Positions 11,615-38,915 of a stretch of 53,059 nucleotides of DNA are shown one piece after another. Origin of the DNA: Cryomorphaceae bacterium (GTDB lineage: Bacteria > Bacteroidota > Bacteroidia > Flavobacteriales > Schleiferiaceae); the NCBI GenBank assembly GCA_003566715.1, contig PXCF01000031.1, positions 1 to 53,059 on the forward strand. The letters run 5' to 3'. The notes beneath the pieces are model-generated. The model was not told the origin of the DNA and did not search any database. It was given only the letters and a program-made list of their open reading frames with translations. The translations under genes and the position numbers were made by a program. How positions within the stretch are numbered: the stretch's first letter is position 1; the number at the start of each line of letters is the position of its first letter.

Positions 11615-14077
11615 TCAGCCAAATCTAAGCTTCAATACCCATTTATAATCAAAAGGGTTGCCAATATTGTCGCCATGCCGATAATAAAATCCTAAGCCAA
11701 ACTGCTGGAAGACACTTAACAACTCTACACCCGATTCGAAAATCATATTACCTTGGGGTGTTTGTACGGGGATGCCTAAATGCTCACCGGCTTCATCTAC
11801 TCCGTCTCCCACCATCATTTTGCCAACAAAGGCCAGCTCAGGGTATGCCGCGTTTCTTCTAAACAAGCGCTGCTCAGTGTTCCATCGGGTCATAACACTC
11901 ACATACCGCTGAAACAGCAACTGATTAAACCCTACGGTCTCCCAGGAAAAAGCGTCACCAAGCGTGGAGTAAGGGAGCCATGAATCTTCATTTACCCTTA
12001 GGTTTGCTGCTGGAGAAAAGAGATAGCTATATGGTACTACGCCACTGGTTAGTCCTCCCTCAATGCGGTGAGAAAACCTTCCGAGTAAAAACGATCGGTG
12101 TTGATGATCGACCTGCAAATCTAGGCGAAGAAATGAGCCCTCATCAACCGACCAATCATCTATCGTGTGTTCTATACGGTGCCTTATCACCGGGTACTTT
12201 GGTTCAATGATGGTTCGCCTACCCCTAATTTCCATGATCTTTTCACTGGGCGCATAGCGTCCTTCCCAACGCAAAGACGTGAATGTAAATCCGTTTTCAA
12301 AGCGATTGTCGTTGACCGACTCGGTATTAAACCAATAATCGGCTCCTACCAAGAAACGATTTTCGCGATGAAGGCTAAATCGATTTTCCCATTTGGGAGA
12401 AGGTTGCCACATCACGTAAGCTTGTGCACTACTTACTTGGTCAAAAACCGATACGTAAAATCTTCTCAACTGAGATAGGTCTGCAAAGAGTGCGCCTCTG
12501 GTAACAATATCAAAGGGCTGTCTTCCAGCTTCTTGAAGATCAAAGACGTATCTGCCGCCAAGTTTTAATTGTGAACGTCTGTGTAGCGTGACTTCTCCGC
12601 CATAACCGTATTTCCAGGCTTTGTCGCGAAAACCGTATCCACCATGACCATAAAATTCCACGTAGCGCGAGAAACGCTGATTGGTTCTACCTCCCAACCC
12701 CAAATAAAAACTTTCATAAGCATTGATACGAAGCAACCTCTTTAAATCTAAATCCACGTAAGGAAAAGTGATAAATCCATCACTGATGGCCTGCAATCCA
12801 CGAACCATGGCATCCAGGTTGATTTCTTCTCCAATGCTATCAATAAACTCATAAGTTGTTTCATCTCTGAGCGTCAAGGCTTTCACGCGATTGTTTTTCC
12901 AAAAATCATCACTTTGTTGACCCGCATTCTCATCGATGCGCACAGCAATTTTCCCCACATCCCTAAGCTTGTTTTCTTTTTGAACGTCAACGTCGGTAAG
13001 ATATGTACGAATGGTACCTTCTAAAATCGTATTTACAAAAACCGTTTCGGATGTATCAACGGCAATCTTAGGAATTTCCAAATTATGAAAAACCATGTCG
13101 ACGTGTAGCTGAGAGGGAAACCAAACCGCTTCTTTTTCATAAATTTGCTTGATGCTAATACTTATGCCTTCATCAGGCATCACAGCCGGTTCTGCATTCA
13201 CCGAACGAATGGCCATATCGGGTGCTTGAATCTGTATTTGTCCCACCAACGCATTGATGTTTCTATTACCCGATGGAGAAAATTGAATCGTGTAAACGGT
13301 ATCCCTTCCCTCATTAACCAACATGGTATCGGTAATCAAATAATCGTAATAACGCTCCAACATTCGGTTTATCGGGCTGATATACACCAAGTCGAGTAGT
13401 GAAAACTCTTGATTGTAGAATGAGAAACTCTGAAATTGACTGCTTAGAACAGCAAATAATGGCTCTTTTATTCCCGAGGTACGCGAGGCCAAAACATCTT
13501 CCGTTACGCGATTAGGCCTCCTAAATCGTCTATTACTCACCGACTCTGATAAGAAGAAATCTCTGGTATTAATAAATAAAAACTCACTGGAATATGCCGA
13601 TTCAGGTATGCTGTCAAAATCATCGGGATACGACTTGACTTTTAGTCCTAAACGCAACTTATTGTAACTCTTACACTGGTATTGATCGAGGTACTCGTGA
13701 TCGTTGTCTTTTCTGTTTTCCATCACCCCCTTGATGAGTCTTAAGGCGGGGTTAACACCAGGTAAAACTTCTACTGCTTGAAGCTCTTTCACTGCTTTTT
13801 TAAGGTCGATATACAAAGTGTCTGCTGCATTTACAGTAATCAGTTGGGCATCGAATCCTATGTAACTCACCTTTAAGTCAACCGGTAAACGAACGCCCTT
13901 CAGTTCAAACCATCCTTCCAAGTCTGAAATGGTTCCTACAGGTTTTCCGTCAACAACCACATTAGCAAATGGCAAAACCTCACCCTCACCAGTTATCTTT
14001 CCGCTAATCGTTTGTCCGAACAGGACGGACATTTGACTGAACAGATATACAACAATTAAAAAAGCACGCATAAACAT
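11615..14077 (-). CDS. DUF5686-family outer-membrane protein with carboxypeptidase-D-like domain
   Basis: An 820-residue protein. A signal peptide (to about residue 22, FGQ) leads into a carboxypeptidase-D regulatory-like beta-sandwich (TISGKITGEGEVLPFANVVV... GYIGFDA-type pattern, about 23-100). Then comes the DUF5686 hallmark NPALRLIKGVMENRKDNDHE and a long C-terminal region of amphipathic strands ending in LKLRFG with a terminal aromatic, as in an outer-membrane barrel. The family's substrate is unknown. It stands alone between porW and the divergent adhesin gene. Either ATG at 14077 or 14071 could be the start; the -7 box TACATTTG at 14092-14099 leaves a leader of only about 11-17 bases. 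Confidence 0.85.
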   Translation of the reverse strand: MFMRAFLIVVYLFSQMSVLFGQTISGKITGEGEVLPFANVVVDGKPVGTISDLEGWFELKGVRLPVDLKVSYIGFDAQLITVNAADTLYIDLKKAVKELQAVEVLPGVNPALRLIKGVMENRKDNDHEYLDQYQCKSYNKLRLGLKVKSYPDDFDSIPESAYSSEFLFINTRDFFLSESVSNRRFRRPNRVTEDVLASRTSGIKEPLFAVLSSQFQSFSFYNQEFSLLDLVYISPINRMLERYYDYLITDTMLVNEGRDTVYTIQFSPSGNRNINALVGQIQIQAPDMAIRSVNAEPAVMPDEGISISIKQIYEKEAVWFPSQLHVDMVFHNLEIPKIAVDTSETVFVNTILEGTIRTYLTDVDVQKENKLRDVGKIAVRIDENAGQQSDDFWKNNRVKALTLRDETTYEFIDSIGEEINLDAMVRGLQAISDGFITFPYVDLDLKRLLRINAYESFYLGLGGRTNQRFSRYVEFYGHGGYGFRDKAWKYGYGGEVTLHRRSQLKLGGRYVFDLQEAGRQPFDIVTRGALFADLSQLRRFYVSVFDQVSSAQAYVMWQPSPKWENRFSLHRENRFLVGADYWFNTESVNDNRFENGFTFTSLRWEGRYAPSEKIMEIRGRRTIIEPKYPVIRHRIEHTIDDWSVDEGSFLRLDLQVDHQHRSFLLGRFSHRIEGGLTSGVVPYSYLFSPAANLRVNEDSWLPYSTLGDAFSWETVGFNQLLFQRYVSVMTRWNTEQRLFRRNAAYPELAFVGKMMVGDGVDEAGEHLGIPVQTPQGNMIFESGVELLSVFQQFGLGFYYRHGDNIGNPFDYKWVLKLRFG

Positions 14078-14205: not shown

Positions 14206-14236
14206 TTTGGTCATTTAAAAAATTTGTCTACATTTG
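14206..14236 (+). promoter_or_regulatory. Full -33/-7 promoter of the large T9SS adhesin
   Basis: TTTG at 14206-14209, a 19-base spacer and TACATTTG at 14229-14236 match the Bacteroidota consensus TTTG-N19-TAnnTTTG exactly. An A-rich tract lies upstream (14176-14203). This is the best promoter in the window; the predicted leader is about 22 bases. Confidence 0.8.
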
Positions 14237-14262
14237 TCGTTGAAAAAACCATACTACTACAT

Positions 14263-17200
14263 ATGACTTCTATTCGACTACTACCGAATAGAGGCAAAAA
14301 ATTGGTCTATAAGCGTCTACTACTGGTTCTACTTGTGCTTATTGGCTATGCCTCTACTTCATTTGTGCATGCTGACTGTACACCTACAGTCAATCTTGGC
14401 AACATAATCCAAACATGCCAAGGCAACAACGTACAACTCAACGCATTTAATAACGGAGCCAGTTATCTTTGGTCTACAGGAGATACGACGCCCAGCATTG
14501 TTGTCACCTCACCCGGGATGTACCATGTCACCGTGACCAACAACTGCGGTTCAGCTTCTGACTCTGTTAATGTAATCATTAGTCAACATGCCCAAGTAAA
14601 CCTGGGGCCCGACATAAAATTCTGTTCGTTACAACCTTTTTCACAAACGTTGAGCGTGCCTCAGGTTGCCGGAACCTCTTATCAATGGTCAACTGGGGCT
14701 TTCACCAACAGCATTAATGTTAGCCAAGCGGGCACGTATTGGGTGACTGCTAGTAATGCTTGCGGCACTTATAGCGACACCATTAATATTATTCCGGAAA
14801 CACCTAATAATTTTAATTTAGGCAACGACACCATTATTTGTCAAAGCAACACCCACTCCTTATCGGTGGGTAATGTTGCGGGATCCATAAGTTGGAGTAA
14901 CGGCGATACCACCAATCAAATTAGCATCAACACATCCGGGGTTTACAGCGTTACGGTATCCAATTCTTGTGGTACGGTTACAGACAGCATAGAAGTATTT
15001 TTTGCTCAAGATGGCTTCCCCATCACTTCCCCCTCCAGCATTTGCAATGGCACACCTGTTTCACTAAACTTAGGGTTTACGAGTTTCCCTTACCAATGGC
15101 ATTTCAATGGAAGCCCCTTTAACCAGGCATCTGCTTCACAGCCGGGCACTTATGTGGTAAGCATGAATACACCTTGTGGCGTCATTAGTGACACATTAAT
15201 CGTCACTCAATCTAGCGCTCCTTCAATCAGCAATTTACCTGACACCGTACGCTTTTGTCAAGGCGATAGTGTACTAATTGCCCCCCAAATAAACGGCAAC
15301 GCAACAGTGCAGTGGTCACACGGTCCCACCACCGACTCTGCTTACGTTCGCACACAGGGAACCGTATCCTTAACTGTTACCAATGGTTGTGGTTCGGTTA
15401 CCGAAACCGTCGTTGTTCGTCGCATTAATAGAGTGCGTACACAAAACATCGTTTCTGAATACTTCATTTGTTCGGGCCAAAGCGTTGATGTTAACGCCTA
15501 TTCCGGAAGATCAGGCACCACCTATACATGGAGCAATGGTAGTGGGAATGACAGTGTCAGAACTTTTAATCAATTGGGAAGTTACTCTGTCACGCTATCC
15601 GATAGCTGCAGTCAGAGAACCTATAACTTCAGTGTTCTTCCCCCAGACACTGTGGACTTTTCCTTTCCTGAAGATTCCGTTTTTATATGTGCGGCTAACT
15701 ACGTTGTAAACCCGGGCATTACACACCCTACCTATTCTTACTTATGGAGCACCAATGACACCACACCAACTATTTCCGTTACATCGAGTGGGTGGTACAC
15801 CGTAACCATTTCCAATGGCTGTGACACAAAGACTGATTCACTATATGTGGAAATTGATGTTGTTCCAAATATCAGTATGCCCAACGAAGTGAGAATTTGT
15901 CAGGGAGAAAACGCTGTTCTATCTTCTACTCATCAAAACGGCGTTATTTATCAGTGGAGCACTGGAGATACGACCAACAGCATAACTGTAAACCAAGCCG
16001 GATGGTATACCTTATATGCCTATAACCGTTGCGATACACTGCATGACTCCGTTCAAGTTATTGTTGATCAACCCATCAATTTACCTCAATTACTAAACAA
16101 CCCCCAGTACACCATCTGTACAGGTGACACGCTTATGGTACCCATATTTGTGCCTTCAGATGCCAACATTACCTGGAGCCATGGAGCTAGTTCAGACACC
16201 GTTTACTTCACAACGGGAGGTGTGTTTACATACACCATTTACAATGCATGCGACACCATTATAGACACTATAAGTGTAATCCAAAACAGCATACCTACCA
16301 GAATGCTGCCGGATACCGTTTACTTATGCACGGGCCAAACCACGATGTTGGATGCGGGTGCAGGTAATCAAAATGCTGTTTGGCATGACTTATCCATCGG
16401 CCGCTTCTTCCAGGTACATGCTGCAGGAACCTATTATGTTACGTTAATGAATGGCTGTGGTTTTCGAACCGATACGGTGGTTGTCATAGAGAACGACCCT
16501 ATAAACTCTATCGACTTGGGTAACGACACCATTTTCTGCGAAGGAACACTACTACTAGACCCGCTACCAAATGCAGGGTTGGGATATCACATTGTATGGA
16601 ACAATAACACACATGCTTCTACTTTCACGGTAACACAATCCGGCACCTATACCGTGATGGCTTATAACGCCTGTGATACCGTGCACGACACCGTTAATGT
16701 TTTAATTACTGGTGCTCCAAATTTAAACCTAGGTGCATTTGTTTACTTCTGTAGTGGTTCTGACCTTATTCTTGACGCTCTAAATCCCGGCTCTTCTTAT
16801 AGCTGGAGTAACGGGGACACAACCCGAACGATTAGTGTAAATGTTCCCGGCTGGTATAGTGTTGAAATTACTAATGGCTGTGGCTCTTTTGTGGACAGCA
16901 TAGAAGTTCGTGTAGATAGCGCCATGAATATTAATTTTGGTAATGACACCATCGTATGTATTGGAGACTCCCTATTGCTGGAAAGCGGCGCCAAAGGGCA
17001 CGAAATCATCTTGTGGTCTAATGGTCAAACAACGCCAAGCATTTACGCTTCTAATACTGGAACGTATTGGGTGCAAGTGGACAATGCTTGCGGAAGGTTT
17101 ACCGACACCATTTACATTGAAGTGATCACAGAACCCGATTTTGAAATAAGGGGAGACACAGTGATGTGTACCTCATTCAATACGCCTCATGAGATTTCAG

Positions 17201-18051
17201 GACCTAAAAACATGATGGGGTATCTTTGGGATGACGGAAGTACATCAAGGGTACGTTTTATTCAAGAACCCGGCAAGTACCACCTCACCGTTTTTAATGG
17301 CTGTTTTTACAAAACAGATACCATCACGGTAATCGGACATGAAACCGTATATGTTGACTTAGGCTTTGACGAAATCTTTTGCATCAGCGAACCGCCCATC
17401 TTAGACCCTGAAGTACATGATTATCCCGTTGTGTGGCAAAACGGAGAAGTTGCTCCTACCTTCACCCCTAAAGAAACCGGGTGGTATAAAGCAACCGTCG
17501 TGAACGCATGTGGCACGTTTACTGACAGTGTGTTTTTAGAGAAAGAAGTGCCTATTCCTTTCACCCCTATTGATACAGCGTTCTGTATTTCGGAAAGCTT
17601 GAACATAAACCTCAAAGAATTATGGCCGGGCGATTCTGTTCGCTGGGCAGATGGAAGAGCGAACCCTAGTCGCACATTCACATCATTTAATGAGCTTGAA
17701 TACGTTGTTTCAAATACTTGTGGTGAAGTTACCCAAACACTTAAGATTGAAACAGAAGTTTGTGATTGTCCTGTTTACATGGCAAATGCATTTACTCCGA
17801 ACGGAGATGGTGTGAACGATGAGATTTATCCCATGCACGAGTGCGACATGGGTTCGTACTCATTTCGTGTGTTTTCACGTTGGGGCAGTATGGTTTTTGA
17901 ATCCAACGGTAACAACGAAGGGTGGGATGGTACCCTCAACGGTTCGCCATCTCCTGCTGGAGTGTATACCTACGAACTTTCTTATTCGTACTGGAGCAAA
18001 GGATATTTACACCACCGCCAAAAAATCGGTCAAATAACCCTTATTCGCTAA
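14263..18051 (+). CDS. Secreted repeat protein with T9SS type B (gliding-motility-associated) sorting domain
   Basis: A 1262-residue cell-surface or secreted protein. The signal peptide ends near VHA (37). Sixteen Ig-like repeats of about 70-75 residues follow, each with a leading Cys (CQG, CSG, CTG), a YxWSxGDTT-like core, GxYxVxVxN and a second Cys or CG before DT/DS, suggesting one disulfide per repeat. The C-terminus (NAFTPNGDGVNDE ... FSRWGSMVFES ... GWDGTLNG ... PAGVYTYEL) is the CHU_C / type B sorting domain that T9SS recognises. The frame is open to a TTG at 14224, but the ATG at 14263 gives a proper signal peptide and follows a strong promoter. Its last 11 bases overlap the 3' end of pyrE on the other strand. 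Likely role: adhesin or matrix protein; ligand unknown. Confidence 0.93.
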   Translation: MTSIRLLPNRGKKLVYKRLLLVLLVLIGYASTSFVHADCTPTVNLGNIIQTCQGNNVQLNAFNNGASYLWSTGDTTPSIVVTSPGMYHVTVTNNCGSASDSVNVIISQHAQVNLGPDIKFCSLQPFSQTLSVPQVAGTSYQWSTGAFTNSINVSQAGTYWVTASNACGTYSDTINIIPETPNNFNLGNDTIICQSNTHSLSVGNVAGSISWSNGDTTNQISINTSGVYSVTVSNSCGTVTDSIEVFFAQDGFPITSPSSICNGTPVSLNLGFTSFPYQWHFNGSPFNQASASQPGTYVVSMNTPCGVISDTLIVTQSSAPSISNLPDTVRFCQGDSVLIAPQINGNATVQWSHGPTTDSAYVRTQGTVSLTVTNGCGSVTETVVVRRINRVRTQNIVSEYFICSGQSVDVNAYSGRSGTTYTWSNGSGNDSVRTFNQLGSYSVTLSDSCSQRTYNFSVLPPDTVDFSFPEDSVFICAANYVVNPGITHPTYSYLWSTNDTTPTISVTSSGWYTVTISNGCDTKTDSLYVEIDVVPNISMPNEVRICQGENAVLSSTHQNGVIYQWSTGDTTNSITVNQAGWYTLYAYNRCDTLHDSVQVIVDQPINLPQLLNNPQYTICTGDTLMVPIFVPSDANITWSHGASSDTVYFTTGGVFTYTIYNACDTIIDTISVIQNSIPTRMLPDTVYLCTGQTTMLDAGAGNQNAVWHDLSIGRFFQVHAAGTYYVTLMNGCGFRTDTVVVIENDPINSIDLGNDTIFCEGTLLLDPLPNAGLGYHIVWNNNTHASTFTVTQSGTYTVMAYNACDTVHDTVNVLITGAPNLNLGAFVYFCSGSDLILDALNPGSSYSWSNGDTTRTISVNVPGWYSVEITNGCGSFVDSIEVRVDSAMNINFGNDTIVCIGDSLLLESGAKGHEIILWSNGQTTPSIYASNTGTYWVQVDNACGRFTDTIYIEVITEPDFEIRGDTVMCTSFNTPHEISGPKNMMGYLWDDGSTSRVRFIQEPGKYHLTVFNGCFYKTDTITVIGHETVYVDLGFDEIFCISEPPILDPEVHDYPVVWQNGEVAPTFTPKETGWYKATVVNACGTFTDSVFLEKEVPIPFTPIDTAFCISESLNINLKELWPGDSVRWADGRANPSRTFTSFNELEYVVSNTCGEVTQTLKIETEVCDCPVYMANAFTPNGDGVNDEIYPMHECDMGSYSFRVFSRWGSMVFESNGNNEGWDGTLNGSPSPAGVYTYELSYSYWSKGYLHHRQKIGQITLIR

Positions 18052-19371: not shown

Positions 19372-20418
19372 TTAAAACATCACACGAAGACCAGCGCTGT
19401 AAGTACCCATAAAAGGTGCTCGGGTTTGTCGATATGAAAAATCTATTGCAAATCGTGTATCGTCGCTAGATGACATCGGTAAGTCGATACTCAAACCACT
19501 GGCAAAACCGGTGAATGCATTGGTTTGTACGCCGTCGATTCGGTTATCGAAGAAGATGTAACCGGCACGTAACATAAACTTTTCCTGGAAGGCAATTTCA
19601 CCACCAACATGGTACTCATCTTTCTGGAAAGAGTTTGAGTTAAATGTACCCATGGCTGTTAGTCGCAAATCACTTCCTAAGTCAAAATCGTATGCACCAC
19701 CTAAATTTAGAGTAGAAGGCAATTCAAAGGCTGCTGAACGACTTTGAAAAGATTGGTTATAATTACCTTCACCAGGCACGGTTAAAGGAACATCTAGACC
19801 ATCACCTCGGAACGAAACAGAAGGTCCAATATTCTTAAGATTAATTCCAAAGCGTATGTGATTGCGACTTCCGGTTACGTACTGAACACCAGCATCAACA
19901 CAAATAGCCGTGGCGCTTAAGTTCGCAAGACTTTGATTAAAAATCTTCAGGTTTACCCCACCGTAGATGGTTTCCGTAAATTTTTGCGCGTAAGAACTGG
20001 TGATAATAACTGCATTGGGAGCAAAAGTTCCCAAGCCACCATCCGGCATATTTTCAGTGGTGATATCGATTTGACCGTAATTAACACTGGTTAATGAAAG
20101 GCCTAAAACACCATTTTCTCCTACGCTTTGCGTTAAACCAAATGCATTGATGGCCATATCTGCCCCAACCAACCATTGCGTATTTGAAAAGGCCACTTCT
20201 GTACCCTCGGTAAAGGCTGTTCCGGCTACATTCATAAAAATGGCCTCAACACCTCTTGCACCGGCGACGTTTGCATTGTTCATCCCGGAGTTCATTGCCC
20301 AGGGATTGATGAGTAACTCAGCAGCTCCAGCTTCACCTACACGTTGAGGGTTTCCTGCGTAAACAGATACACTAGCTAAAGCTAACGTCAATCCAAGTAC
20401 CTTTAATGGTTTTATCAT
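19372..20418 (-). CDS. PorV/PorQ-family outer-membrane barrel protein
   Basis: PorV and its relatives are 14-stranded FadL-like barrels; PorV itself collects T9SS substrates from the translocon and passes them to the attachment complex. This 348-residue protein has a signal peptide (cleaved near SVYA), the family's opening (GEAGAAELLINPWAMNSG, then ARGVEAIFMNVAGTAF, equivalent to the G...NPA motif), repeated amphipathic strands and a C-terminal strand ending RVMF. It is shorter than PorV (about 390) and is better called a paralogue. It is third in a minus-strand unit behind a TonB-dependent receptor and a 1390-residue secreted protein, separated from the latter by a 91-base gap with a strong hairpin. 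Confidence 0.85.
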   Translation of the reverse strand: MIKPLKVLGLTLALASVSVYAGNPQRVGEAGAAELLINPWAMNSGMNNANVAGARGVEAIFMNVAGTAFTEGTEVAFSNTQWLVGADMAINAFGLTQSVGENGVLGLSLTSVNYGQIDITTENMPDGGLGTFAPNAVIITSSYAQKFTETIYGGVNLKIFNQSLANLSATAICVDAGVQYVTGSRNHIRFGINLKNIGPSVSFRGDGLDVPLTVPGEGNYNQSFQSRSAAFELPSTLNLGGAYDFDLGSDLRLTAMGTFNSNSFQKDEYHVGGEIAFQEKFMLRAGYIFFDNRIDGVQTNAFTGFASGLSIDLPMSSSDDTRFAIDFSYRQTRAPFMGTYSAGLRVMF

Positions 20419-20469
20419 AACTCTTCTACTTGTGATGATTTTTCTTTTTGAATGATACGTTTATTGAAT

Positions 20470-20495
20470 GATGGAGCACTTTGACATGCTCCATC
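20470..20495 (-). other. Intercistronic stem-loop between the giant protein and PorV-like genes
   Basis: A perfect 9-bp stem GATGGAGCA / TGCTCCATC (20470-20478 with 20487-20495) with an 8-base loop. No U-run follows on the minus strand, so it is not a standard terminator. It may protect the upstream mRNA or set different levels of the two proteins. Confidence 0.65.
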
Positions 20496-20509
20496 AATTT
20501 TCAATTATT

Positions 20510-23500
20510 TTAAAATGCATTTAGGTCAACAGGTCGCATAGCACCAAACCATTTGAGCACTTTATTACCTCGTTCACCGGCGTCAACGTGAATGATGTAA
20601 ACACCGCTGGCAATAGGAATACCGTAATCATTGGTCAAATCCCACTCTAGGAATGGCAGGGTGTTGTCCTTTCTAAATGTTCTGATCTTAGTACCACTTG
20701 TGGTATAAATATGCACATCGCAACGGTCAGGCAAGTTGGTGATTTTGACGATATTATCGAGTTGGCTTTGCTCATAACGCGAGAAAGCATAGTAAGGGTT
20801 TGGTACAACTCTTATCAAATCAAGCGCATCAGAAGCAACATCCGATAATCTCACGCCGGCTGCTATATCAGTGGTATTGAATGAGTACATTGGCAAGCCA
20901 TTGTTTAAGGAATCCGTCGTGTGAAACTCAGACCAAGTACGATTCATTCTGATTTTGTAGCGTACCGTCGCTGGTATATCTCCATAAGGATCTACGTTGG
21001 CAAACGCAGGATTTAACCTCGGAACATGCACATATTGAGCAGCACGCCAGAACGCACGTCTTGCTAAGTTGGCACTTGGCAGACTGAGATAGTGGACGAA
21101 CAAAGGATTGGTTTCAATATCCGGTCCAGTATAAGTAAGGTCGACTATGGCATTTTGGTTAGCATTTGTATTTTCTGCGTGGAAAATATATAAGTAATGC
21201 ATACCACCCATAACCACTCTAAAATTATCAGCGATTCTGGCTGATGGATTCCAAAGCATATCGTTACCGTTGTCGCCAACCAACCACGTATTTTCACCAA
21301 AGGCAATACACAATCTTGACCCAGTTTCAATATCTATGGCGTAACCCGGGAAGTAAGACCATCCAGCATCGGCAGGATCGTTAGACCTTACCAGTTCATC
21401 ACCCTGCAGAATCCACCCAGGCGCCGTTCTCAAACTGTGTTTGGTAACTCCATCGGCTGATTCTAAAGGATCTTCGGCCATTTCAAATACAGGGACGCGT
21501 GTCCATTTAGACTTATCTGATGTAATGACTACATCAACAGATCGCGATCTTGAAACCTCAGTATTTGAAGGTGTGATCCCGTCAAAACCAGGGCCAAAGC
21601 CTTGAGAGAACTGACTGGTCGCTCTTGTTAAACGACTTACTATAGAATATGGAGCCCATGTTCTATTGACAATATTCCAGTTATCGCATGGATCGGCAAT
21701 TAAATCACGGTAAGTTTCATTAATCGTACCTGCTGATGTCAAAGTGTTGGTTCCGGCAAAAATCCAATTGAGGGGTGTAAATGAATTATTGCTGGAAATT
21801 CCGGTTAACCATGGTTTTGTGGGATCTGAATAGATGACTTCAGAACCGATAATTCCGGCACCAAATTCACACTCCTCATCCTCTGCTGGATTTCTCACAT
21901 TTCTGATATTGACAGACAAGCCTATCTCAGAGATGATTTGTTCGTTGTTGAAACCAATGGTCGTATCAGAAGCTATACCTACAGGTCCATTTGACTTATT
22001 GGCACCGGCGCCTAGAACAACTTCCTCGCCATCTTCATCGATATAAGTTCCTTCTAGGAACCATCGGGTGTCGGGTCCCATAACTCTTCTGTTACCTGTT
22101 ACCGGACCATCAAATTTAATCGTAAAGTTACCCGGACGAACATTTTTAGGATTAACTACCTTGATGTTTAAAGGTCCTTGGTTCTTTTTATAGGTAATCT
22201 GCTCAACCTTGTAAGAATTGACAATAGCCTCTTCGGTCATATCCGTAATTTCCAAGAAACGTCCCATATTACCAATACCGTCTACACGAGTAATTTCCGG
22301 GCTATCGCCATATTGAGAGTTAAGAGTCATACCATCGCGCTGCATTTCCGTTTTATGTGGAATGGCACGGTGAACGACAATGGAACCACCACCTGCTGAA
22401 CGACGGCTAGGCAAATAAGGTGTTTGCTGCGTCAAATCAGGTTCTGTTGGACTAAACACACGGAATTGATTTACCGCATAAGCAATGACATAGAAATAAT
22501 ACTCTCTGTGGTTGATTAAACGTCCATCTAACTGATCCGTAAACGCGTCTTGAGTGATTCTATAAGTCGTTTGTATTCCCTGATTATTGGCCTCAATGGT
22601 CATATCTTGAGGAATAAAAGCATTATTTAAATCCGGTGCACGTTCGAAGTTAATCAACTGTGTATGTTCGTTTTCTACATCACTTTGAAAAACCAAACGA
22701 GATAAATCAGGATTGTATAAGTCAGCAGACGTAACATCCGCATTTCGGAATTGGAAAATCTGGATGCCTTCAAAGGCGTACTCAAAGTAACCTTCTTGAC
22801 GAGCGGAATCAATTTTAGCTGGCGTCCAATCAGGTTGCTCCACGATAAGTGGATCAGTTTGGCGATATCCAAAATTGAAATTATTACTTGTAGGTGGATA
22901 AGAGAGTTTCATGATAAGCTCTCTGTCTAATGTTTCAATGGTTACAATAGGGGCATCCGGTCCATCCAGAATCTGGAAACAGTTGTCGAAAAGATTCTGC
23001 GCCTTATCGTCGGCGATCTTTAGAAGTCGAACAGAGGCATATGGGTCAGGATCTGTAAAATCACGCGCCCACACAGCACCCGTAGTGATAAAGTTCAACG
23101 CTCCTGGCTCTAGAGTAAATGGACCTGCTGTGTGAAGCCCTCTTTTGTCGAACAACTCTGTTGCCGGCTCAAACCAACCTCCATTTGGCCAAGGCTCAAA
23201 CGGCGGGAATGTACCCCAAGAAAAGAGTCCTTCGGTTTGAGGGCCAGTTGACGTTGTATCGTAAGATAGACCAGGATAAGCGAACAATGTACGAGTACCA
23301 GAACCATCTGCGGTAAAACCATTTCCGTTACTGGCACTACCAAGTCCTCCACTGGTTGTATAAACCAAGGGGTTTCCATTTAACCAACGGTTCTGTAAAT
23401 AACGATAATAATCTTGACCAACGCGTGGATCGACCATATTGGGGTTGGTAAAATCACTGCGGTTATAATACATGAAGCCGCTCATGATGATACGTTCATT

Positions 23501-24682
23501 GATTCCAAGTGCTGGGTTTTCAGGAATACAGTTTCCGGCCGAGTCTCTTACCGCATCGATACAACCGTCTTTGTTGTTATCTAACCCGTCAAAATAATCG
23601 GCAAAAGGTCCTTGGAAAAAGTCTAAACCAATGGCTGGGGGATTGGCACCGTAACCAATAGGACCCGCATCAATGGGGTTGGCGTTATAACAGTATCCCA
23701 AACCACGGGGAATATCACAACCAATTAAGTCATCATTGGGGTTTCCTAAATCGGGGTCAAACCAAGTTCCAAAAAAAGTGTTGGTCAGCGTAAATGTCGA
23801 CTTATTGAGAATACGATAGTTGTAAAAAGTCATGTTATTAATCTCATCGTTTGAGCTAAACGCAAACGCTTGCGCACGAATCTCAAAACCAAGCGCACCG
23901 GCCTCCGACTGAGTGTGAACATTACCACGGTCATTGTATACCCACCATATGGTTTTGTCACCGTAAAGTACGTCGATTTCAACAACACGACAATCATACT
24001 GACGATCCAAATCATAACCGGGATAATCAACTTCCCAATCGTACAAACCATCACCATCTAAATCTTCAAATGGAGCCAAACGGAAAGGAAGCGGGCTATC
24101 AAATCCGGGGATACCATTTCCGGGCCAGTCACGGATCACCAATGGGGGATCGTATCCGGGGAAAGCATCTGCTTCGTTACAGTTAGGATCTTCTTTACAC
24201 TGTATCCACGCACGATGAATTTCAACATCTTCTCTAAAGATGGTCCAGAAGCGGTCATAACGTGTACAAGTAGTATTGGTAACCGATGCCGTACCATCAT
24301 CTGTAAGTGGTCCGGGCCAAAAGTCATTACCACGCTGACGGTATGTCATGGCGGCAAGTCTCAACTGAGAACCTTCATCCAAACCACCCAGCCAAAGTGC
24401 ACCGGCAAACATGGAGTGACGGTTACTACCTTTAGGTACTTCATAGCGCGGCTGACCGGTTAGGTTCCACCACATATCTCCCGCAGCCAGCACTCTTGCA
24501 CGAACGTTATTAAGATCTAAGTCGATTTGTGCCGTTGCCGGACTACACAACTCATTCATGGTTCGTTTCACGAACTTCTTTTTATTACTGTCTCCACCAC
24601 CTGGGATTTCACGAGCTGATAGAGTGGAAAATGCAAACATCATCGTGATTGCAGATATCCAAAAGAGCATTTTATTTCTCAT
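20510..24682 (-). CDS. Giant secreted protein (1390 residues) of the receptor/PorV unit
   Basis: I do not recognise a named family. A signal peptide (MRNKMLFWISAITMMFAFSTLSA) is followed by a Trp/Tyr/Asp/Asn/Gly-rich globular region. Near the start it has GDMWWNLTGQPRYEVPKG and MFAGALWLGG. Two calcium-loop-like stretches are seen: DLDGDGLYDWE and DNNKDGCIDA. Cysteines occur in scattered pairs. The C-terminus (VVPNPYY ... VHIYTTSGTKIRTF ... GIPIASGVYIIHVD) has the shape of a type A T9SS sorting domain or FlgD-like Ig fold, but continues with an atypical tail ending PVDLNAF. It lies 40 bases after the TonB-dependent receptor and before a PorV-like gene, so the protein is probably exported by T9SS and displayed with them. 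Function unknown. Confidence 0.8.
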   Translation of the reverse strand: MRNKMLFWISAITMMFAFSTLSAREIPGGGDSNKKKFVKRTMNELCSPATAQIDLDLNNVRARVLAAGDMWWNLTGQPRYEVPKGSNRHSMFAGALWLGGLDEGSQLRLAAMTYRQRGNDFWPGPLTDDGTASVTNTTCTRYDRFWTIFREDVEIHRAWIQCKEDPNCNEADAFPGYDPPLVIRDWPGNGIPGFDSPLPFRLAPFEDLDGDGLYDWEVDYPGYDLDRQYDCRVVEIDVLYGDKTIWWVYNDRGNVHTQSEAGALGFEIRAQAFAFSSNDEINNMTFYNYRILNKSTFTLTNTFFGTWFDPDLGNPNDDLIGCDIPRGLGYCYNANPIDAGPIGYGANPPAIGLDFFQGPFADYFDGLDNNKDGCIDAVRDSAGNCIPENPALGINERIIMSGFMYYNRSDFTNPNMVDPRVGQDYYRYLQNRWLNGNPLVYTTSGGLGSASNGNGFTADGSGTRTLFAYPGLSYDTTSTGPQTEGLFSWGTFPPFEPWPNGGWFEPATELFDKRGLHTAGPFTLEPGALNFITTGAVWARDFTDPDPYASVRLLKIADDKAQNLFDNCFQILDGPDAPIVTIETLDRELIMKLSYPPTSNNFNFGYRQTDPLIVEQPDWTPAKIDSARQEGYFEYAFEGIQIFQFRNADVTSADLYNPDLSRLVFQSDVENEHTQLINFERAPDLNNAFIPQDMTIEANNQGIQTTYRITQDAFTDQLDGRLINHREYYFYVIAYAVNQFRVFSPTEPDLTQQTPYLPSRRSAGGGSIVVHRAIPHKTEMQRDGMTLNSQYGDSPEITRVDGIGNMGRFLEITDMTEEAIVNSYKVEQITYKKNQGPLNIKVVNPKNVRPGNFTIKFDGPVTGNRRVMGPDTRWFLEGTYIDEDGEEVVLGAGANKSNGPVGIASDTTIGFNNEQIISEIGLSVNIRNVRNPAEDEECEFGAGIIGSEVIYSDPTKPWLTGISSNNSFTPLNWIFAGTNTLTSAGTINETYRDLIADPCDNWNIVNRTWAPYSIVSRLTRATSQFSQGFGPGFDGITPSNTEVSRSRSVDVVITSDKSKWTRVPVFEMAEDPLESADGVTKHSLRTAPGWILQGDELVRSNDPADAGWSYFPGYAIDIETGSRLCIAFGENTWLVGDNGNDMLWNPSARIADNFRVVMGGMHYLYIFHAENTNANQNAIVDLTYTGPDIETNPLFVHYLSLPSANLARRAFWRAAQYVHVPRLNPAFANVDPYGDIPATVRYKIRMNRTWSEFHTTDSLNNGLPMYSFNTTDIAAGVRLSDVASDALDLIRVVPNPYYAFSRYEQSQLDNIVKITNLPDRCDVHIYTTSGTKIRTFRKDNTLPFLEWDLTNDYGIPIASGVYIIHVDAGERGNKVLKWFGAMRPVDLNAF

Positions 24683-24722
24683 AACCCCATTATTTTATTA
24701 AAAAAATTAGTTTTCAATATGA

Positions 24723-27700
24723 TTAAAAATTCCACATAACACCCAGACGTACACGACGGGGAAGTGCAAAGTTAAACGGATTTTGAAGGCGTGCTCTGTA
24801 CAAATCGGCAAATGCTTCCGCACTCACGGCTTGTTGTACAGCGGTCACTGAACGGTCAGACGCTAAATAACCATCGTCTTGTGGGTCTCCGGTGTAGGCG
24901 TAAACACCGAGTACGTTCATGTTGTCAAATACGTTAAGTACCTGAAGATATACATCCACATTTTGTTTTCTTCCTCCTTCCTTAAACGCGAAGGCGAATA
25001 CTTTATTAACGCGCATATCGGCTCTGAATTGCCATGGCAAGCGAGAACCATTGATTTGACCTAGAGTAGGGATGTTTCCTTGAGGATTAGTTGTAAGTGG
25101 ATAAGGAAGTTCTCTTCTAGTAAACGGCGTTCCGGAGTTGGCGTTTACCACGAAGTTAACCCCGAAGTTTTCCAATACGCGCTTGTTCCACCAGATAGGT
25201 CCATTATATGATTTCCCTGAACCGTAACGATAGTCAAATCGAACCGTTGCTTGGTGACGAGAGTCAAAGCTTAATGGAAGAATAAAGCGAAGGTTAGGTT
25301 GCTCTGTTCTAGCCAAGTTAAGTGAGGTATTTGGACCTGAACCGGTACCATCCGCAAATTGGAGGGTATAGTTGGCAAATACCGTGAAGTTTCTATAGCG
25401 GCGTAGGTCATACTCCAATGAAAAACCTTTTACAGTAGAGAAGTCCAAGTTGTCATATGTTATATACGTTCCCGGATAGGCATTGGTCATGGCGCGTGTT
25501 TGCATCATATCGCGCATTTCACGGTAAAAACCCGAAATCTTCATTGAACTGATGCGCGTCAATACTTGTGTAAAACCAATTTCGTAGTCGGTGGTACGTT
25601 GTGGCAACAAGTTTGGATTGGGTATTGGACTATTGGTTCCTTTCAATACTTCATATTCCAACATTTGGATGGGGTTGAAAATGGACAATCCCGGGTCTGG
25701 TCTTTGCGCCAATACATCGTAGTGAGCAAAGAACAACGCCTCATCAGAAATTGGGAAGTTGAAGTTGATACGTGGCATTACCACAATTTGCGGCGTATAA
25801 TCAGTAAATGAAGAAGCATCCAGTGATAGGTTATCCGGATCATCGAAGAAATAAGGACGTGCTTGACCGCCACCTGCATCGGCTATATCTTTCGGATTAC
25901 GCAGGATTCGTCCGTCGGTACCGAACCAGTTGTTTCCGTCGCGGTAACCTACGATGGTTGGTGATCCACCTCCATCTTGGAAGAAATTGTAGTCTTGTAC
26001 GTAAACAATAAAGTCATCCCCAATGGAGCTGGGAATAGTGTTGCGCAATTCGTCAAACTGAGAAGGAATTTCACTTACCGTTCTTGCAGGATATAACGAA
26101 AATGGATCATTCAACACCGGCTGATTAGCGTCGTAACGATCCACACGAACACCTACGTTAAAACGTAAATCATTGAACGTAAACTGGTCTTGTACATAAA
26201 GAGCGCCGTAAATCGGGGAAAAGGCACCAATGGGTCGCGCCAATGTACCATCTTCATTTCGCAAAGTAAAGAAATCTTCAATGGTAGGATTGCCTCTTTG
26301 AATTCTACCCGTGTGATCAAAACCAAGGTAGTTGATTTGTCTCTGTCCACTTAAGTTGATCAACTGATCGGCAGAGAACATATCCAAGCTAAATACCGAT
26401 GGGTCATAGCCATCAATATTAATATGCTCAGTGCTTCTTTCCTCAATACCTACCGCATTGCGGAAGCGACGCGCAAAGGCATTTTGTTGGAAAGCTGTTT
26501 CCGAAAACAAGAAAGGATAAAGAATGGTATCTTGGAAAACACCATTTTCATCAAATACCGGAATGGGATTACTAAAGTCAAATTCGTTGATGTGGTCATT
26601 TTGCAACAGGCGCATCAAGGGCCACAACCCGGGTCCTCCTACACTAAATGAGCGGTCTGTTCTTTGCTCGAGCTCAAAACCGGCAATCACTGAATGTTGT
26701 TTGATATCAAACGTTACCGAACCGGTTACCCGAAATTGAGAGTTTTGTACCTGCTGAAAATTAGATACATTGGCTCCAACATTTCCCCACAACTGATACA
26801 CGCTGAACGGTTGGTCACCATTAATCAAACCACGACCGGCGCGAATAGCGTCGAAGTTTGCGGTGCTACCCAATAAAGGATTGTTGGCAATAGACTGATA
26901 ATAAAATGACGTATACGCTGCCAATTCCGGGTTGTAAGGACTGGGCGTAAACGTGGTGCTTATTGGACGTGGAGAAATCGCTCTAAACCCGGTAAGGCCG
27001 GTGGTTTCATCACGACCAAACTGGTAAGCGAAGTCTGATTCCAAATCAAAGGTTCCTACGTGACCGTAAGCAAAGTAATTATCTTGGTGATTTGGGTCTT
27101 GAATGGTTCTCCAGTTTCTCGTATAGTCGGCCTGAATGGTAAGGAAAACGTTTTGCAACAAACTATTTCGGCTTTCCCCGTCGGTGTTAAAGCTCTGAGT
27201 GAAACGAGCAAATCCCGCTAAGTCGGTATCGATAAACTGTGCAAAGTTGCGGTAGTTGAATAAAGAGTTAAACGTATTAAAGCTGTTTCCTTGAGCGTGA
27301 ACAAACCGACCTCCTAAGGCCAAATTAGAATTCTGACCGAGTGAGATGTTTACGTTACCCGTTACTCTCGCGTTGTACTGCTGAGCATTCAATCGGGCAG
27401 GAATCTCCTCTAGGTCGTTCATGGTAACAAACTCTGCGTTGGTAACAACCCCTTGACCAGGGCCAGCCGGACGAACGGGCACTTGTCTAATCTGATCCAA
27501 TAAAGTTGGGTTGACGCGGTATTGTGGGGTTGCTGCCGGACGAGGATCATTTTCAAACTGAAACTCACCAGCCAATAAGAAACCTACAATGGGCTTGTTG
27601 GTTCCTTTCTTTTTGATTATCGGTCCACCGATTGTCAATGCGGCAAGGTTATAATGGTATTGATCAAAAGGTGAAGACGTCAAAATCTCCCCGGAACCAA

Positions 27701-28388
27701 AAAACACAGGAGATGGGCCCTTGGTAGTGGTAGAAATCACACCACCCGTGGCGTCTCCATACTGTGCTGGCAAACCACCGGTATAAACCTCCGTTTGTTG
27801 AATGGCCGCTTGAGGGAGTTGTAACGATCCACGAACACGAACACCATCAATAAAGTAGATGGTGGTATTGGAACGTGAACCCCTTATTATAGGTGCCGAT
27901 CCGTCGTCTGCTGCATATACACCGGCCGTCTGGGCGGCAATGTTGGTGATTTCACGAACCGCCATTTCATTGATTTCCTTGTCGGTTACACGGGTAACTG
28001 GATCGGTATTGATAAGGGGCTTGTCAAACGTAATGACATCAATAACCTCCAAGTCATCAACCGATTGACTCATTTTAAAGTTTTGAACCGTGGCTACGTT
28101 GGGGTTGATTTGCACACCTTCAAGGATAATTTTATTATACCCCATGAAAGTAACTTCAACGTTGTAAGTCCCTACATCTAAAGGGTTAATGTTAAAGTTT
28201 CCGTCTAAATCGGCATCCTGCGAACGAATGACGTTATCGGCACGGTCTTTGACAACTACCGTAGCAAATGATACTGCCTCTCCGGTTGTAGCGTCTGTTA
28301 CTTTACCACGAAGAGAACCTGGGCGAGACTGAGCAAACGCCAACACTGTACTGCAAACAAAGAGCAGACTCAGTAATTTTTTAGTCAT
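24723..28388 (-). CDS. TonB-dependent receptor with carboxypeptidase-D-like N-terminal domain
   Basis: A 1221-residue outer-membrane receptor. The signal peptide ends at FAQ; residues about 21-110 form a carboxypeptidase-D regulatory-like domain (GSLRGKVTDATTGEAVSFATVVV ... VTFMGYNKIILEGV). The plug domain follows (APIIRGSRSNTTIYFIDGVRVRG ... QYGDATGGVISTTTKG), then a long 22-strand-type barrel ending RRVRLGVMWNF. No SusD-like gene is nearby, so this is not a SusCD glycan locus. It is the first gene of the unit with the 1390-residue secreted protein and the PorV-like barrel. It might act as a conduit, plug or docking barrel for the secreted partner rather than as a nutrient receptor; that is inference. 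Confidence 0.9.
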   Translation of the reverse strand: MTKKLLSLLFVCSTVLAFAQSRPGSLRGKVTDATTGEAVSFATVVVKDRADNVIRSQDADLDGNFNINPLDVGTYNVEVTFMGYNKIILEGVQINPNVATVQNFKMSQSVDDLEVIDVITFDKPLINTDPVTRVTDKEINEMAVREITNIAAQTAGVYAADDGSAPIIRGSRSNTTIYFIDGVRVRGSLQLPQAAIQQTEVYTGGLPAQYGDATGGVISTTTKGPSPVFFGSGEILTSSPFDQYHYNLAALTIGGPIIKKKGTNKPIVGFLLAGEFQFENDPRPAATPQYRVNPTLLDQIRQVPVRPAGPGQGVVTNAEFVTMNDLEEIPARLNAQQYNARVTGNVNISLGQNSNLALGGRFVHAQGNSFNTFNSLFNYRNFAQFIDTDLAGFARFTQSFNTDGESRNSLLQNVFLTIQADYTRNWRTIQDPNHQDNYFAYGHVGTFDLESDFAYQFGRDETTGLTGFRAISPRPISTTFTPSPYNPELAAYTSFYYQSIANNPLLGSTANFDAIRAGRGLINGDQPFSVYQLWGNVGANVSNFQQVQNSQFRVTGSVTFDIKQHSVIAGFELEQRTDRSFSVGGPGLWPLMRLLQNDHINEFDFSNPIPVFDENGVFQDTILYPFLFSETAFQQNAFARRFRNAVGIEERSTEHINIDGYDPSVFSLDMFSADQLINLSGQRQINYLGFDHTGRIQRGNPTIEDFFTLRNEDGTLARPIGAFSPIYGALYVQDQFTFNDLRFNVGVRVDRYDANQPVLNDPFSLYPARTVSEIPSQFDELRNTIPSSIGDDFIVYVQDYNFFQDGGGSPTIVGYRDGNNWFGTDGRILRNPKDIADAGGGQARPYFFDDPDNLSLDASSFTDYTPQIVVMPRINFNFPISDEALFFAHYDVLAQRPDPGLSIFNPIQMLEYEVLKGTNSPIPNPNLLPQRTTDYEIGFTQVLTRISSMKISGFYREMRDMMQTRAMTNAYPGTYITYDNLDFSTVKGFSLEYDLRRYRNFTVFANYTLQFADGTGSGPNTSLNLARTEQPNLRFILPLSFDSRHQATVRFDYRYGSGKSYNGPIWWNKRVLENFGVNFVVNANSGTPFTRRELPYPLTTNPQGNIPTLGQINGSRLPWQFRADMRVNKVFAFAFKEGGRKQNVDVYLQVLNVFDNMNVLGVYAYTGDPQDDGYLASDRSVTAVQQAVSAEAFADLYRARLQNPFNFALPRRVRLGVMWNF

Positions 28389-37373: not shown

Positions 37374-38114
37374 ATGAAAAAATTATTATTTTCTTTCACG
37401 GCTTTGTTGGGATTTGGTGTTGCTTTTGCACAAACCCCTTCTTATGACTTATCTGCTGAATTGGTTCAGCCAGCAGCCAGCGCAACCATCGTTTCAGGAC
37501 AGTCATTTACCATTGAGATAAATGTAAACAATGCAGGACCTGACGCTATTCCTGCTGGAGACACCATTGGTGTTGTGCCTTTGATTGGCGGACAACCATT
37601 TCAAAATCAACAGGGCCAACCATTTATATTTGCCACCATTCTTCAAGCACCTATTCCCGCAAATGGATCAATCTCTTTTGACAACAACTTCACTGTAACT
37701 GGTACGCAGTCAGGATCGTTGACTTTATGTGCAGAGCTCTTCGCAGTACAAGGTAATTCTGCCGGAGGTGAGATTGATTCATCAAACTGGGTTGATTGTA
37801 ATAGTGTAAATTTCCAAGGTGGTGGAACAACCAGTGTAAACGAATATAAACTTTCCGTTACCGAAGATAACTCTTACTACGCCGAAGGTGTTTTCTATTT
37901 CGATGTGACCTCTATTAATGGCGACGCCGCACGTGTCAACTACGATTTAGTAAACGTTGCCGGCCAAACCATCATCAGCGGACAACTTCCAATTAACGTA
38001 AGCAGTGTAAAAGGACAAGTGGAAATCCCTCAAGTTCCCACTGGTGTTTACATCATGCGCATGTCTGATGGCCAGCAGTTCAACGCCACCAAAAAAATTA
38101 TGATCGCTCAATAA
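37374..38114 (+). CDS. Secreted protein with CARDB-like domain and T9SS type A sorting domain (paralogue 1)
   Basis: A 246-residue exported protein. The signal peptide ends FAQ. Residues about 22-150 are a CARDB/Ig-like domain (YDLSAELVQPAASATIVSG ... NNAGPDAIPAGDTIG). The last 80 residues are a type A sorting domain (YDLVNVAGQTIISGQL ... VPTGVYIMRMSDGQQFNATKKIMI), which T9SS recognises and cleaves. A near-consensus -7 box TACTTTAG lies at 37335-37342. It is followed by a strong terminator and then a diverged paralogue at 38199, so it is one half of a tandem duplication. Function unknown. Confidence 0.88.
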   Translation: MKKLLFSFTALLGFGVAFAQTPSYDLSAELVQPAASATIVSGQSFTIEINVNNAGPDAIPAGDTIGVVPLIGGQPFQNQQGQPFIFATILQAPIPANGSISFDNNFTVTGTQSGSLTLCAELFAVQGNSAGGEIDSSNWVDCNSVNFQGGGTTSVNEYKLSVTEDNSYYAEGVFYFDVTSINGDAARVNYDLVNVAGQTIISGQLPINVSSVKGQVEIPQVPTGVYIMRMSDGQQFNATKKIMIAQ

Positions 38115-38198: not shown

Positions 38199-38915
38199 TT
38201 GAAACGTCTCACAACCTTACTGTTCTTTGCCGCTTGTTATATAATGAACGGGCAATCTCACGACTTGGAAGTATCCCTGATTCGCCCAACCAATGGCTTT
38301 GCGTCGGGTGTACAGTTCACTTTTGAGGCCGGGTTTACCAACAATGGCCCCGATACCATCCCCGCCGGAGACACCGTGTTCTTTCAAGCCACATTTAACG
38401 GGCAACCACTGCTCGAAATGGGTCAACCCATTACCTATAGGTATATATTTAATCAAAACCTTGCTAGTGGTCAAACTTTAAGTAGCTCCAGACAATTAAC
38501 CGTCATCGGCGGCAGTTTTGGGCAAGTAAATGTGTGCGCCAAAATCACAGAATACAGAGGGGTGGCCTCCGGGAATGAAATTGACTCCAGCAATTGGGAA
38601 GATTGTCGATTGCAAACATACTCAGACGTGAGTAGTACAGGAACATTTCGATTGTTATCGCCCATAAATAACTCTCGCATGGTGCACAACCATCTAATCA
38701 TTGACTTGGAAGACGCCCCCATTTCTGTGAGTAACGCGGCAAACATTAAACTTTACAATCTCAATGGTCAGGTCATTTACAGCACGACCATCGCTTCTAA
38801 GAATCACCAAATTTTTGAAACATTAGTCATTCCAAGCGTGCCTCAAGGTCTATATATCCTCGACCTGTATTTTGCAGGGCATGCCCCGTTGCGAAAAAAA
38901 CTCAGTACTCTTTAA
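38199..38915 (+). CDS. Secreted protein with CARDB-like domain and T9SS type A sorting domain (paralogue 2, TTG start)
   Basis: A 238-residue exported protein, paralogous to the gene just upstream: SHDLEVSLIRPTNGFASGVQF aligns with its YDLSAELVQP opening, both share NNGPDTIPAGDT-like and EIDSSNW segments, and both end in a type A sorting domain (IKLYNLNGQVIYSTTI ... VPQGLYILDLYF). The likely start is TTG at 38199, since only that start gives a signal peptide (MKRLTTLLFFAACYIMNGQ); the first ATG at 38244 would remove it. It ends 11 bases before the convergent DUF3050 gene. Confidence 0.85.
   Translation: MKRLTTLLFFAACYIMNGQSHDLEVSLIRPTNGFASGVQFTFEAGFTNNGPDTIPAGDTVFFQATFNGQPLLEMGQPITYRYIFNQNLASGQTLSSSRQLTVIGGSFGQVNVCAKITEYRGVASGNEIDSSNWEDCRLQTYSDVSSTGTFRLLSPINNSRMVHNHLIIDLEDAPISVSNAANIKLYNLNGQVIYSTTIASKNHQIFETLVIPSVPQGLYILDLYFAGHAPLRKKLSTL

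Follow-up and report, generated by a model that had tools for sequence, protein, structure and literature searches.

A trio of envelope genes on one strand

In the window, that is, the whole stretch of 53,059 nucleotides from a Cryomorphaceae bacterium that was analysed, a TonB-dependent receptor (TBDR), a giant exported protein and a PorV/PorQ-family outer membrane barrel are encoded side by side. The question raised by this locus is what these three proteins have to do with one another. In a preliminary description it was proposed that they form a dedicated surface-delivery module, in which one PorV paralogue serves one cargo, the giant, with the TonB-type barrel as partner or anchor, and that the three families should stay together in other genomes.

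The genes follow one another in the order TBDR, giant, barrel on the same strand with gaps of 40 and 91 nt (Table 1), and their tight arrangement and reading frame coordinates were exactly as described before. Judged by a pattern match only, a terminator-like hairpin may close the transcription unit right after the barrel gene. The product of the first gene is a TonB-dependent receptor according to its Plug domain (PF07715, 40.7 bits at a cut-off of 23.9), and the carboxypeptidase-D-like domain that had been recognized in it was confirmed (CarboxypepD_reg, PF13620, 53.9 bits). At E 0.1 it showed no match to the SusC/RagA model TIGR04056 (cut-off 368) and is not a SusC protein by this model. 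SusD, reported earlier as missing, was found neither in the window nor in the whole genome upon searching with PF07980. The window contains a second outer-membrane-type gene with an N-terminal CarboxypepD_reg-like domain, which encodes a DUF5686 protein (11615-14077, minus strand).

Table 1. Positions of the trio and its features in the window
Feature	Position	Strand	Properties or basis
TonB-dependent receptor (TBDR), first gene of the unit	24723-28388	-	1221 aa; signal peptide, CarboxypepD_reg, plug
Giant exported cargo	20510-24682	-	1390 aa; signal peptide, no Pfam family
Predicted beta-supersandwich of the giant, residues ~46-570	22973-24547	-	AF2 model and structure match
Calcium-type loop DLDGDGLYD of the giant, residues 207-215	24038-24064	-	kept in most of 20 orthologues
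Second calcium-type loop DGLDNNKDG of the giant, residues 365-373	23564-23590	-	kept in most of 20 orthologues
C-terminal sorting domain (CTD) of the giant, trio-type, residues 1281-1390	20513-20842	-	alignment; profile likeness to PorZ/PorU
PorV/PorQ-family outer membrane barrel	19372-20418	-	348 aa; NF033709; paralogue apart from PorV, PorQ and PorV2
Terminator-like hairpin directly behind the barrel gene	19350-19322	-	12-pair stem and T-run; pattern match only

Co-occurrence and gene order in the Bacteroidia

The distribution of the three families was determined in 198 genomes of the class Bacteroidia, spread over its families. Full-length orthologues of the giant were present in 171 of these genomes (the top matches were about 38-46% identical). 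The TBDR orthologue was detected in 162 of the 171 giant-bearing genomes and in none of the 27 others (Fisher p 6e-26), and the barrel orthologue in 161 and in one, respectively (Fisher p 3e-23); the genome that makes this lone exception is 69% complete. Both partners directly flanked 85 of the 114 giants in the fetched loci, in the same order and on the same strand and with median gaps of 23 and 22.5 nt; the remaining giants were mostly solo paralogues or were situated at contig ends. The expectation that the families stay together in other genomes was borne out by this co-occurrence, and the trio proved to be phylum-wide.

Full-length solo giants that adjoin neither a TBDR nor a barrel were observed in loci L057, L142, L143, L146, L152, L158 and others, so that the cargo can exist apart from its partners. 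If they are exported, these giants would need a barrel encoded elsewhere, like orphan type B cargos. Locus L048 only seems to be giant-free, since a longer antisense ORF masks the giant; the trio is intact there. Viral contigs yielded no relative.

In most members of the class the trio is followed by greA, a HIT hydrolase gene and ruvC. As the copies in the Bacteroidia lie in this conserved block, the three envelope genes might simply have been co-inherited in a conserved neighbourhood, as a genomic habit without a joint function. However, the trio is intact where the block is lost: in the window a Nudix gene and pyrE replace greA-HIT-ruvC, and the L104 trio likewise does without it. The trio is thus maintained as a unit while its neighbourhood changes. 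Horizontal acquisition of the trio in the window was considered, since sampled genomes of the same order were without it, and was rejected because the giant is present in all sampled members of the own family and in several other families of the order.

The barrel and its T9SS background

The assignment of the barrel to the PorV/PorQ family held, with 152.4 bits for NF033709 (cut-off 90). It is not PorV, PorQ or PorV2 proper: NF033710 gave 69.9 of 250 bits, NF033711 71.3 of 220 bits and NF052325 (cut-off 325) no match, and the own genome carries separate PorV, PorQ and PorV2 genes. Together with these three, SprA, PorU (a C25 peptidase) and 78 type A CTD matches indicate that the T9SS is present in this genome. 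When the CTD and the barrel of an orthologue were modelled by AF2 as one chain, both parts were predicted to be well folded (pLDDT 83, pTM 0.70), which speaks for the folds and not for a contact. The best PDB match of the model was PorV (8gl6_F, E 6e-14), and 6h3i_F also indicated PorV as the closest fold.

PorU is held at the surface by PorV and PorZ by PorQ (PMC7463736), and type A cargos have PorV as their shuttle (PMC7463736, PMC10994853). For type B cargos, secretion and surface retention are served by cognate PorP/SprF barrels, which are often encoded directly downstream (PMC12618676, PMC9143113). As the trio unites PorV-family anchoring with the features of a cognate, type B-like barrel, its barrel may be expected both to collect and to hold its cargo.

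SprA was found in 169 of the 171 giant-bearing genomes and in 22 of the 27 others (p 6e-4). Of the two giant-bearing genomes that gave no SprA match, one is 95% and the other 56% complete. Five near-complete genomes have neither SprA nor such a gap in the assembly, and the giant is missing from all of them.

The sorting domain of the giant

The giant had been described as a 1390-residue exported protein with a sorting-domain-like C-terminus. Its size and signal peptide stood, whereas the likeness to known sorting domains was weak. It did not qualify as a T9SS type A cargo (16.6 of the 23 bits for TIGR04183, no match to PF18962) or as a type B cargo, as TIGR04131 and CHU_C did not match its C-terminus. 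The latter models do detect the type B sorting domain of a 1275-aa protein encoded in the window (14224-18051, plus strand; 51 bits with TIGR04131 and 54 bits with CHU_C). Two adjacent small proteins of 246 and 238 aa, also encoded in the window (37374-38114 and 38199-38915, plus strand), have sub-threshold type A sorting tails.

The PorZ model matched residues 1284-1371 of the giant (E 1.3e-5). A PDB search with the CTD profile retrieved PorZ by its C-terminus (5m11, E 0.0085), and PorU came up as a weak match (6za2, E 0.61). Adiponectin, which topped this search, was discounted as an artefact of repeats, with 6.7 bits for each of them. By these sequence comparisons the trio-type CTD resembles the CTDs of PorZ and PorU more than those of type A. 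The giant-type CTDs are highly conserved, with a mean column identity of 60% and a conserved tail ..KWFGxMRPxDLxxF. In the last 10 columns of the alignment this tail runs past the usual CTD end and has an aromatic last residue (..DLxxF). The multi-copy cargos in L197, L201 and L204, in contrast, terminate with ..KFAVIK.

In general terms the giant would be a T9SS cargo that is exported through SprA with its CTD as the signal. This is suggested by the homology of the CTD and by the near restriction of the giant to SprA-bearing genomes, both of which are indirect.

The body of the giant

Pfam gave no match anywhere in the giant, the SusD domain (PF07980 and relatives) included, which means that it is not a SusD/RagB protein by these models. 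The giant gave no match in initial sequence searches of the PDB either, and sortase or A-LPS-delivery domains were not found in the trio. Residues 21-1200 were modelled by AF2 on 71 sequences (pLDDT 82). Comparison of the region of residues ~46-570 by VIA-align yielded dextran dextrinase 9ju0 (Z 19.3, rmsd 3.1, 251 aligned), followed by cellodextrin phosphorylase (GH94), glucodextranase (GH15) and GH116. The GH-L-type plan consists of a supersandwich and a catalytic (alpha/alpha)6 barrel; the supersandwich was matched, and most alignments ended before the catalytic barrel or just touched it. The matches listed were beta-supersandwich enzymes, and SusD was not among them, which excludes nothing. 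On this model the N-terminal half of the giant is predicted to be a beta-supersandwich of the carbohydrate-enzyme type, a fold that does not in itself show sugar binding.

It is also this supersandwich region that recurs in the shorter giants from other classes. Homology restricted to the N-terminal half of the giant was observed for solo proteins of about 560-860 aa in L116 (G203:C1:2204149) and, in the own genome, in L100 (C104:16256-18694). They represent a free-standing supersandwich family, and a trio-type CTD was not seen in the L100 protein.

The calcium-loop-like motifs that had been pointed out in the giant are indeed mostly kept in orthologues from 20 families. In the first loop (D-x-D-G-D-G-x-Y-D, residues 207-215) each D or G of D207-G212 is present in 14-18 of the 20 orthologues. 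Cys46, Cys139 and Cys322 are conserved among the orthologues as well.

Its size and its calcium-type loops would also suit a giant that is structural or adhesive, a surface scaffold or adhesin for which the TBDR would be an anchor or energy transducer and not an importer. Such a role fits with the single copy found in many genomes, the near-universal presence in environmental members of the class, the lack of glycan genes around the giant and the fact that CarboxypepD_reg is not specific to uptake. It does not fit with the carbohydrate-enzyme fold predicted for the body, nor with paralogous trios in polysaccharide loci (PMC9530828), and we regard it as improbable.

Multiple trios and their pairing in other classes

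In other classes of the phylum a profile search revealed shorter giants with lengths of about 1090-1220 aa, and the order TBDR, giant, barrel was found again in most of the loci examined. In the phylum sample 30 of 395 were positive, a fraction that is not a prevalence as this sample leans to cultured-looking genomes. Trios in the other classes are often present in 7-13 copies per genome, and PorV-family genes in up to 16. In 17 of 20 sampled regions the TBDR gene was followed by that of a cargo with a trio-type CTD (675-1174 aa) and this by a barrel gene, and in two others the TBDR and barrel were together and the cargo was a few genes upstream. For 46 of the 60 PorV-family genes listed in eight genomes, to which this count applies, a trio-type CTD encoded on the same strand ended no more than 700 nt upstream, where 0.06 was expected; eight of the 14 unpaired listed genes were the canonical PorV, one per genome. 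Across 19 genomes the number of trio-type CTDs followed that of PorV-family genes with a rho of 0.94.

The own genome conforms to this: its only two trio-type CTDs and its two PorV-family genes beyond PorV, PorQ and PorV2 are those of the window trio and of a variant on contig C47. The variant (L097, 7826-18911) comprises, on the same strand, a 743-aa cargo with a trio-type CTD, a type A CTD protein, a 1011-aa TBDR, a 338-aa PorV-family barrel and an NHL-repeat protein; its TBDR and barrel genes abut. This genomic pairing gives strong support to the proposal of one cargo for one PorV paralogue, to which the PorP/SprF shuttles that are cognate to type B cargos provide a published parallel (PMC12618676, PMC9143113). 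The evidence for one-to-one pairing is good; a physical complex and its ligand are what we infer.

In seven paralogous trios of one genome the distances were correlated for every pair of parts (Mantel p 0.001-0.006), with r 0.90 for barrel and cargo (p 0.005), 0.885 for barrel and CTD (p 0.004) and 0.78 for CTD and TBDR (p 0.004). Because it occurs within a single genome, this co-variation cannot stem from a common species tree. It could reflect duplication of the whole operon, and either way the parts are not reshuffled. Both the co-variation and the presence of multi-copy trios in unrelated loci of other classes contradict a mere habit of co-inheritance, which we consider hardly credible. 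An other-class trio beside yebC- and ruvC-like genes (L217, 15432-16737) may point to an old common neighbourhood with greA-HIT-ruvC, or may be a coincidence.

By profile comparison the other-class cargos are of two kinds: large ones, whose homology to the giant extends over 926 columns (E 3e-46), and small ones, which have in common with it only the last 102 columns, which are the CTD (E 1.4e-14). Exchangeable bodies on a constant CTD, each with its own barrel, are what a dedicated collecting and anchoring barrel would predict.

The genomic pairing suits a shuttle as well as an anchor. The barrel might collect the giant from SprA and no more, PorU then processing the giant so that it is released or attached to lipopolysaccharide, and the TBDR importing the product without touching the giant. 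PorV itself acts as a shuttle (PMC7463736, PMC10994853), and the PorU and the 78 type A CTD matches of the own genome are in line with this. On the other hand, the CTD of the giant stays below the type A cut-off, is highly conserved including its unique tail and resembles the CTDs of PorZ and PorU. Moreover, there is one barrel per cargo, as with the type B cargos that are retained on their PorP/SprF partner (PMC9143113). A barrel that is a dedicated shuttle only is possible, but we think it rather unlikely.

Glycan loci and SusD

According to a report on the alginate locus of R. marinus, a TBDR, a T9SS-CTD protein and a PorV/PorQ protein are encoded beside alginate lyases (PMC9530828). This trio was found again here, next to a PL6-type lyase (L222, 5138-8956), in the Rhodothermus-type genome G236. 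Its TBDR frame of 569 aa is shorter than the published gene of 2805 nt, possibly by a frameshift or deletion in the assembly. Another paralogous trio (L225) adjoins a pectate-lyase-like protein. For many of the genes next to trios in other classes an enzyme domain could not be assigned. The giant-type trio is situated in the greA-HIT-ruvC neighbourhood and not in a glycan locus; the ligand proposed for it is thus borrowed from the paralogous trios.

SusD was present in 0-7 copies (mean 1.7) in 35 trio-bearing genomes and in 5-41 copies in seven genomes without a trio (p 2.5e-5), in a set that is small, hand-picked and phylogenetically uneven. The fold of the cargo, the trios in glycan loci and this contrast in SusD together support the capture of a ligand for a TonB-dependent transporter, and this ligand is probably a carbohydrate.

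Proposed function of the trio

On balance we favour, with some reserve, an uptake complex that resembles SusCD and is assembled through the T9SS, the cargo being collected and kept beside the TBDR by a PorV-like barrel dedicated to it. The giant would be exported by Sec, pass SprA and be picked up through its own type of CTD by its own PorV-family barrel and not by the general PorV. The barrel would then remain with the giant as its membrane anchor, as PorV does with PorU and PorQ with PorZ. At the surface the body of the giant, with its supersandwich and calcium loops, would capture a ligand, probably a glycan or glycoconjugate, and pass it to the neighbouring TonB-dependent barrel. Export through SprA and pick-up and retention by the barrel are suggested by what is known of these families. 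Contact with the TBDR, the type of ligand and uptake have less support than these.

The TBDR, for which the roles of partner and anchor had both been put forward, found no support as an anchor: it would be the likelier functional partner, and the PorV-like barrel the likelier anchor by analogy with PorU/PorV and PorZ/PorQ (PMC7463736). The idea of a dedicated module was therefore largely right, and the TBDR as anchor was its weaker part.

Comparison with known systems

SusC/SusD (RagA/RagB) resembles the trio in combining a TonB-dependent barrel with a large surface-exposed partner encoded next door, in being multi-copy in some lineages and in occurring in part in polysaccharide loci. SusD is a lipoprotein, whereas the partner in the trio is a putative T9SS cargo that carries a sorting domain at its C-terminus and has no SusD Pfam match; a PorV-family barrel is added, and the TBDR does not match the SusC model. 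In the type B systems SprB/SprF and PG1035/PorP, too, the gene behind the cargo gene encodes a FadL-like barrel that is specific to this cargo and serves to collect and retain it (PMC12618676, PMC9143113). The trio differs in that its barrel is of the PorV/PorQ family, curated models assign the CTD of its cargo to neither type A nor type B, and the unit includes a TBDR. PorU-PorV and PorZ-PorQ share with the trio a surface protein that is held by a PorV/PorQ-family barrel (PMC7463736) and the CTD likeness, whereas trios are without sortase or A-LPS-delivery domains as far as found, multiply instead of being single core components and include a TBDR. In the Bacteroidota BAM (BamA-BamG-BamH) the FadL-like barrel BamG binds the surface-exposed BamH, but its surface subunits are lipoproteins that form a canopy over BamA, where the trio has a T9SS cargo and a TBDR (PMC12611786).

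The TBDR-hypA-hypB genes of the R. marinus alginate locus have the three-gene order and the families of the trio, with a cargo body that is unrelated to the giant beyond the CTD. In the accessible text these genes were annotated, no mechanism was proposed and the arrangement was drawn without comment (PMC9530828). Apart from this annotation, a TBDR-cargo-PorV unit was not found in the open-licence literature, in agreement with the earlier statement that no function has been described for the arrangement. Cognate shuttles, PorV-family anchors and pairs of a TBDR with a partner are each already known. What is new, as far as the searchable literature goes, is the combination of a T9SS cargo having its own CTD class with its own PorV-family barrel and a TBDR, phylum-wide and multiplied in some classes.

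There is a real chance that the trio is a new architecture of uptake systems. It might be a third TonB-dependent uptake architecture of the Bacteroidota, in which T9SS-exported, PorV-paralogue-anchored substrate-binding proteins replace SusD on TonB-dependent barrels and a separate CTD class is read by dedicated PorV-family shuttle-anchors; such an architecture would be old and spread over the whole phylum, with the well-studied SusCD-using families nearly devoid of it. For this wider proposal we hold the arguments to be evenly balanced. PorV has been described as the general shuttle for all type A cargos, whereas here PorV-family paralogues have one cargo each, which belongs to a separate CTD class, and are also paired with a TBDR; a genome may carry as many as about a dozen such sets. 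The trio thereby makes it testable whether a PorV-family barrel is a permanent anchor or a recycled shuttle. If the complex forms, it would explain by what means Bacteroidota that are poor in SusD present substrate-binding proteins on uptake channels and would give annotators a marker for polysaccharide loci that are now overlooked by SusC/SusD searches. Nutrient uptake would then be added to the biological roles of the T9SS.
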